From Terriglobales bacterium (lineage in GTDB: Bacteria > Acidobacteriota > Terriglobia > Terriglobales > Acidobacteriaceae): a DNA stretch of 64,000 bases. Made by a program: the position numbers and the translations under genes. Shown here piece after piece: positions 61,158-61,721 of the stretch. The notes beneath the pieces were generated by a model. The model searched no databases. It was not told the origin of the DNA and saw nothing but the letters and a program-made list of their open reading frames with translations. How positions within the stretch are numbered: position 1 is the first letter of the stretch; each line of letters begins with the position of its first letter. The stretch covers positions 62,001-126,000 of the forward strand of contig DASTZZ010000031.1 in NCBI GenBank assembly GCA_035764005.1, in the 5' to 3' direction.

Positions 61158-61721
61158 ATGCTCAAGAAAATTCTGCTTGGAATCGGGATTGTCGTCCTCA
61201 TTCTGGCCGGTCTGGTAGCGTTTGCGCTATATCACTATCCCAAGGCGCAGATTGTGAGTGCGAGCAATCAGGCAGCTCCGGACTTCGCTCTGAAAGATGC
61301 GCACGGACAGGATTTCACTCTTTCGTCTCTCCGTGGACACAAAGCAGTTCTCTTTTTTTACCGAGGCTACTGGTGACCATTCTGCATGAAGCAACTGCGC
61401 GAGTTCGCGCAGAGGAAATCAGATTTTGACGCGCAAAACGCCCGCGTGGTGGCCATCAGCGTCGATGATATGGACCACGCACGCAAGGTTTGGGACGAAG
61501 TAGCGCATGGAAACGTGATCGTGCTCAGCGATCCTGAAGCCAAAGTAATTCGCGAGTACGGATTGCTTCACCCCAAAGGGCACAGTGGCGAGGACATAGC
61601 GTTGCGTGCAACCCTCGTCCTTGACAGCAACGGTCGCGAGGTTTATCGCAAGGTGAGCAGCTCAGTACCGGACATAAGGACGGCCGACGAAATCCTGGCA
61701 GAGCTCAGAAAGGTACAATAA
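61158..61721 (+). CDS. peroxiredoxin-like protein with in-frame TGA (candidate selenoprotein, UPFC motif)
   Basis: Read through, 187 residues. ATG 61158, AGGA nine bases upstream. Residues 1-24 form a membrane anchor ([20 protein letters not shown]); then a thioredoxin-fold AhpC/TSA-like domain: [30 protein letters not shown], then TGA (61374-61376, residue 73), [14 protein letters not shown]. In relatives the site is CPFC, so TGA replaces the first, peroxidatic-type, cysteine exactly. The frame continues intact to a normal stop ([33 protein letters not shown]). The codon would insert selenocysteine; alternatives are a nonsense mutation or sequence error. There is a hairpin at 61395. Confidence 0.75.
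61395..61412 (+). promoter_or_regulatory. candidate bacterial SECIS hairpin
   Basis: CTGCGCG (61395-61401), loop AGTT, CGCGCAG (61406-61412): seven perfect base pairs, 18 bases after the TGA. The G of the loop is 29 bases from the T of TGA, inside the 16-37-base range known for bacterial SECIS elements, and the loop contains the G and U typical of SelB recognition. There is no obvious bulged U in the upper stem. Confidence 0.55.

Follow-up and report, generated by a model that had tools for sequence, protein, structure and literature searches.

A single frame interrupted by one TGA codon

The window, by which I mean the whole 64-kb stretch of DNA that was analysed, carries on its forward strand a coding sequence (61158–61721) for a peroxiredoxin-like protein of 187 residues, which ends at a TAA codon (61719–61721) and is a predicted selenoprotein. 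Its frame contains a TGA (61374–61376) that, read as selenocysteine (Sec), would specify residue 73 in the context YRGYW-U-PFC. Translation confirmed the original prediction that this TGA alone breaks the frame and yielded the 187 residues of the joined protein. The sequence AGGAA (61148–61152, forward strand), located 5 nt upstream of the ATG at 61158, resembles a Shine-Dalgarno element and is a candidate ribosome site. Under the standard code, by contrast, the list of open reading frames splits the gene into an upstream-extended frame of 195 aa (60789–61376) and a frame of 111 aa (61386–61721) that starts at an internal ATG (Met77, 61386–61388, forward strand). As already proposed, this ATG is not preceded by a suitably spaced ribosome site, as judged by eye.

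The sequences on both sides of the TGA had also been described as intact and family-like, and comparison of the joined protein with Pfam bears this out. The protein matches AhpC-TSA (PF00578) over residues 37–159, with an E-value of 2.1e-30 and 105.7 bits (cut-off 26), and Redoxin (PF08534), with an E-value of 6.8e-27 and 94.5 bits (cut-off 26.6), both matches spanning the TGA. Because the AhpC-TSA match crosses the TGA and relatives have a TGA at the same codon, the joined frame is not a product of chance. A sequencing error at 61374 is very unlikely, since independent genomes carry TGA at this codon.

The gene lies between what I take to be a ThiC-like gene, on the opposite strand, and a CoaD-like gene. 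A search by eye for a conserved operon among the window copy and two ortholog copies (L176 and L177) found none; these two orthologs share neighbours that presumably correspond to Dgt, a TPR protein and PurH, which the window copy does not have.

Retention of the TGA codon in relatives

At E ≤ 1e-20, the 299 genomes of the class contain 21 matches, distributed over 20 genomes, and exactly one TGA is present in 20 of the 21. In all 20 it occupies the Sec73 codon (19 matches by pattern, L024 separately). The sole TGA-less match (G274:C443) is an ordinary peroxiredoxin, 39% identical, that reads FYPLDFSPVC. A family profile, A1, which leans towards the TGA form as it was built from TGA-selected rows, finds a match at E ≤ 1e-15 in all 299 genomes. 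One internal TGA, the position of which was checked for the fetched sequences only, is present in 41 of the best 42 profile matches (E ≤ 8e-42), the exception being L155 (G274:C188), which reads FYRGYWCTYC. At E-values weaker than about 8e-42, TGA-containing and TGA-less sequences are mixed among the matches listed.

The TGA form extends beyond this class. A DNA pattern that includes the TGA retrieved at least 118 stretches from named genomes, of which 80 were used; these 80 come from Acidobacteriota and from contigs titled Verrucomicrobia, Rokubacteria, Planctomycetes, Gemmatimonadota, Chloroflexi and Proteobacteria, mostly metagenome bins. Residues R69, G70, W72, U73, P74 and C76 are invariant in alignment A1, which for the rows retrieved with the DNA pattern is a consequence of that pattern. 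Six peptide patterns derived from one sequence, of which the site pattern requires a Cys codon, gave no match in the genome contigs.

The L024 locus (G062:C117) is a Sec form with UDFC in place of UPFC (RGYWUDFC) and an 8-bp hairpin. Among the matches listed, one TGA likewise interrupts open frames of about 350–520 aa in several more distant redoxin-like genes of the class; further selenoproteins of the superfamily are therefore likely in the class.

Exchange of Sec and Cys at the site

Homologs in which Cys and Sec replace each other at this site were named in the original prediction as a means of checking it, and such exchange is seen, both in Cys homologs and as changes on a tree. Cys stands at the same codon in 14 homologs, which read FYRG[GE]WCP[YF]C, FFRGRWCP[YF]C, FYRSADWCPYC or FYRGYWCTYC; L167 and L174, missed by the motif filter, are also Cys forms according to BLAST. 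In a tree built from 76 Sec and 14 Cys rows (90 in all), well-supported branches force three Sec/Cys changes. The window protein belongs to a clade of five Sec rows with a support of 99/100. The FYRGYWCTYC protein, L155, is a Cys form placed among Sec forms, in a group of 22 rows with a support of 98/94, its exact fork being weak (81/25). L168 forms a long branch, the placement of which is unsure.

A SECIS-like hairpin downstream of the UGA

A hairpin that the original prediction had not described follows the UGA at 61395–61412 (forward strand). It consists of a 7-bp stem, CUGCGCG/CGCGCAG, closed by an AGUU loop that a spacer of 25 nt separates from the UGA, and has a predicted free energy of -11.7 kcal/mol. 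The bacterial SECIS (bSECIS) model, as given in the available part of PMC13188914, calls for a loop of 3–9 nt, a stem of 4–16 bp, a G within the first two bases of the loop, a distance of 16–37 nt from the UGA and a minimum free energy (MFE) of -7.5 or lower, and the window hairpin lies within every one of these bounds. None of 200 shuffles of its 18 bases folds as well, these bases having been chosen after the hairpin was seen.

Conservation of the hairpin was scored in 73 relatives, obtained by thinning 99 loci (19 from the genome set, 80 from the DNA pattern) at 80% identity; the pattern did not match L024 and L035, which had therefore been left out before thinning. The score (loop of 3–8, G within the first two bases of the loop, 16–37 nt) was written after folds had been seen, with literature criteria that were later checked against the available part of PMC13188914. 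A score of 7 is reached by 60 of the 73 relatives, whereas 300 rounds of synonymous-codon shuffling give 12.1 (sd 3.1) and never more than 20. At control offsets of -54, +30, +60 and +90, the counts were 7, 14, 6 and 10, for null values of 7.7, 14.2, 8.4 and 7.9, respectively. The MFE of the 48 bases from the UGA points the same way, with a mean z of -0.98 in the 73 relatives, for which two control stretches give -0.20 and -0.06; in these hairpin and MFE statistics, shared ancestry is handled by the 80% identity thinning alone. Taken by itself, the window sequence has a mildly low MFE (z -1.55; p 0.065). L024 and three further Sec loci all reach the hairpin score (4/4, null 1.0). Among Cys forms, 3 of 14 reach it versus a null of 1.5 (sd 1.0), with a mean of 5.2 versus 3.4, so this control, which is small and excludes L167 and L174, is not hairpin-free. 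L155 scores 7.0 with a loop unlike that of its Sec neighbours, as expected if a SECIS element decays after loss of Sec.

The loop mostly starts 19, 23, 24, 27 or 28 bases past the first base of the UGA, depending on the branch. One tentative reading of such a difference in register among branches is that base pairing in the RNA influences which residues immediately follow the active site. Within the window clade, one relative (L057) has a stem pair changed from C-G to U-A, both codons being synonymous. Covariation in this five-row clade is no better than in shuffled sequences (210/500), the clade being too small for the test. Across the 76 Sec rows, the two bases that lie 18 and 24 positions beyond the U of the UGA are GC in 38 cases, CG in 22, GG in 8, CC in 5 and other combinations in 3, and their pairing tracks Glu/Arg versus Gln/Ala in the protein. 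Covariation of amino acids forced by an RNA stem is not claimed from these positions, because the independent changes are too few: two pairs on well-supported branches, four on all branches. An apparent covariation in 31 rows was likewise set aside, as presence of the hairpin was what these rows had been selected by, which makes the argument circular. A comparison with Rfam gave three matches, all far below the gathering score (best E 0.51).

Selenocysteine machinery in the genome

The genome to which the window belongs (5.1 Mb, 97.5% complete) encodes the Sec pathway that the original prediction implied. SelA (552.2 bits), SelB (381.2 bits), SelD (359.5 bits) and tRNA-Sec (65 bits for a cut-off of 47) each score over their curated cut-off, and the tRNA, with anticodon TCA, is also called by ARAGORN. 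Absence of selB and selC had been set beforehand as a finding, the main one, that would count against Sec; both genes were found. The SelD gene of the same genome (G000:C98:13144-14070, L179) has a UGA of its own, in VKAAG-U-ASKLSP, and is by its sequence a selenoprotein gene as well; this UGA is followed by a 7-bp hairpin with a GGC loop. UxxK is listed as the SelD motif in Table 1 of PMC13188914, as available in part.

The machinery accompanies the TGA form in other genomes. SelB is present at E ≤ 1e-60 in all 18 other genomes that have this form among their matches at E ≤ 1e-20; it exceeds the cut-off in 17 of them and is split into two pieces in G211. Of the 18, 17 have tRNA-Sec, the exception (G291) being 73% complete. 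Among the 20 listed genomes of the same family that have no match at E ≤ 1e-20, SelB was found in three and tRNA-Sec in five. One of the three SelB-positive genomes (G078), which has no close match, harbours a more distant TGA member that reads FYRGHWUPFC. Two genomes of the same family, G083 and G091, have a tRNA-Sec over the cut-off but no SelB at E ≤ 1e-60; these tRNA matches may be relics or false matches, or their SelB may have been missed.

Predicted fold, export and active site

A structure model computed from a 73-row alignment has a mean pLDDT of 90.3 and a peroxiredoxin fold, and its best 50 structural matches are all peroxiredoxins (Bcp, Prx, AhpC, AhpE and tryparedoxin peroxidase). 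PF00578 is matched by all 73 members of the family. The window protein itself matches 22 NCBIfam models, each of them below its cut-off; the best E-values among family members are 5.9e-22 for the ResA model and 1.9e-18 for the SelL-related one.

Residues 2–23 (61161–61226, forward strand) are modelled as a hydrophobic N-terminal helix, either a signal peptide or a signal anchor, in a region where the pLDDT is 73, 71 and 60 over the first three blocks of ten residues. The helix suggests that the protein is probably exported. The original prediction spoke of a membrane-anchored enzyme; the anchor is one of two equally possible outcomes. At this place the window protein reads VAFA-LYHY and orthologs read GSAFAQ (L017) and SLFAQ (L018), so that the helix may equally well be a signal peptide that is cleaved off.

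Peroxiredoxins have a catalytic motif, PxxxT/SxxC, and an active-site Arg. The window protein departs from this motif: in RGYWUPFC, Pro is replaced by Arg69 and Thr/Ser by Sec73, and the Cys is kept. In a sequence alignment to solved structures, Sec73 falls opposite the Thr/Ser of the motif, and Cys76 (61383–61385, forward strand), the second residue of UxxC, aligns with the peroxidatic Cys. In the same alignment, the CxxC of ResA coincides with the positions of Sec73 and Cys76. Arg150 (61605–61607, forward strand) stands in the Arg column of peroxiredoxins; it is found in the window protein and three of its four clade mates, and 62 of the 73 rows of the wider family have Pro in this column.

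Discussion

The most economical account of these data is that Sec is very probably inserted at residue 73 of a redox protein with a peroxiredoxin fold. The original prediction had placed Sec at this residue, and four lines of evidence converge on it: conservation of the TGA, Cys homologs, the Sec machinery and the hairpin that the present analysis adds. SelB and tRNA-Sec would decode the UGA at 61374 under the direction of the hairpin at 61395–61412. The N-terminal helix would send the protein to the periplasmic side, where the remainder would adopt the peroxiredoxin fold, with Sec73 at the site of the catalytic Thr/Ser and Cys76 at that of the peroxidatic Cys. The selenolate of Sec73 could then attack an oxidised substrate, either a hydroperoxide or the disulfide of a protein or of a small molecule. 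By analogy with general UxxC chemistry, resolution by Cys76 would lead to an intramolecular Sec73–Cys76 selenenylsulfide, which most likely forms during turnover, and an envelope thiol reductant would regenerate the pair.

Two more specific roles may be considered, the likelihood of each being part of that of Sec insertion and not additional to it. One is that the protein uses its UxxC as a thioredoxin-type CxxC and thus acts as a thiol:disulfide oxidoreductase, with a ResA/TlpA-like role on a peroxiredoxin fold. This has a reasonable chance of being right, if somewhat short of an even one. The alignment of the ResA CxxC with UxxC and the probable export of the protein argue for it, as does the NCBIfam ResA model, which matches 69 of the 73 members at E ≤ 1e-5, with the window protein at 50.6 bits, below the cut-off of 170. 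Against it, the best 50 structural matches are peroxiredoxins, a list that does not amount to an exclusion of ResA, and the neighbouring genes that were looked at by eye included none recognisable as being of cytochrome-maturation or Dsb type.

The other is that the protein is a peroxidase in which Cys76 attacks the hydroperoxide with the help of Arg150, and Sec73 serves as a resolving or activating residue. The position of Cys76 in the column of the peroxidatic Cys, that of Arg150 in the peroxiredoxin Arg column in four of the five members of the window clade, and the identity of the sole TGA-less match at E ≤ 1e-20 as an ordinary peroxiredoxin all speak for such a role. It is nonetheless rather unlikely: the Pro and Thr/Ser of the motif have given way to Arg69 and Sec73, and Pro predominates at column 150 in the wider family. 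Moreover, Sec is the stronger nucleophile, which counts against attack by Cys76.

A broader proposal, which I put forward tentatively and regard as doubtful in its entirety, is that proteins with RG[YF]WUP[FY]C form a widespread Sec clade of their own, in which the SECIS register varies by branch, and that the window branch is an exported peroxidase in which Sec replaces the Thr beside the peroxidatic Cys76 and Arg150 is kept.

That the TGA is a true stop, the locus being a pseudogene, a truncated gene, a sequencing error or two separate ORFs, agrees with the two ORFs obtained under the standard code but is highly improbable in view of the retention of the TGA in many genomes with conserved flanks on both sides, the hairpin tied to the UGA, the Sec machinery of the genome and the ATG at 61386 with no ribosome site recognisable by eye. 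It is scarcely credible that suppression or a changed code makes UGA specify another residue, given that TGA terminates 11 of the window's 32 mechanical ORFs with a length of 250 aa or more, that homologs have Cys at the site and that tRNA-Sec and SelB are present.

With Sec at residue 73, the acidobacterium is suggested to use selenium in an envelope redox protein, which raises the question of why a peroxiredoxin fold should have selenium in place of its Thr. Since the standard code splits the gene into two ORFs, routine annotation would overlook an entire redox enzyme, and since the TGA form recurs across phyla, the same annotation error may be present in many genomes.

Relation to known selenoproteins

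Prx-like proteins with UxxC have been known as selenoproteins since the mid-2000s. In the available parts of the reports concerned, 22 sequences are described from Sargasso Sea data (PMC1088965), 225 from GOS under the name Prx-like 1 (PMC2398784) and eight from complete genomes as Prx-like thiol:disulfide oxidoreductases (PMC1794560), and the latter family, with UxxC/UxxU, appears in tables of 2022 and 2026 (PMC9312934; PMC13188914). For Acidobacteria, partly available sources give four selenoproteins of three families in 2006 (PMC1794560) and three selenoproteins in Occallatibacter riparius (PMC12013277). Judged by these published descriptions, as far as they are available, the window protein is a member of the Prx-like UxxC group, and the gene is a further example of known selenoproteins, because such proteins have already been published. 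Within the open-licence literature searched, no paper on the acidobacterial clade was recognised.

Like the Prx-like thiol:disulfide oxidoreductase selenoproteins, as described in the available text, the window protein has a PF00578 domain, Sec as the first residue of UxxC, Cys homologs and a hairpin that fits the bSECIS model. Unlike what is seen here, the available portions of the Prx-like UxxC descriptions include neither the RG[YF]WUP[FY]C signature nor a shifting SECIS register. Set beside the description of the Redoxin family selenoprotein (PF08534) in Table 1 of PMC13188914, in its available part, the window protein shares UxxC and the PF08534 match. The SelL-related redox proteins (NF040769) provide its best NCBIfam match, yet at 53.7 bits for a cut-off of 120. 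Its first structural match is Sulfolobus Bcp4 (3hjp; Z 24.8, rmsd 1.7 over 154 residues), and Mycobacterium AhpE (1xxu; Z 23.6, rmsd 1.6 over 149 residues) is another; unlike the window protein, both are, by their titles, ordinary thiol peroxiredoxins devoid of Sec. The peroxiredoxin fold is also that of the Sec-peroxiredoxins (PMC1088965, PMC13188914), in which, according to the available descriptions, Sec follows Thr in a TxxU motif, whereas in the window protein Sec takes the Thr position itself and Cys comes later.
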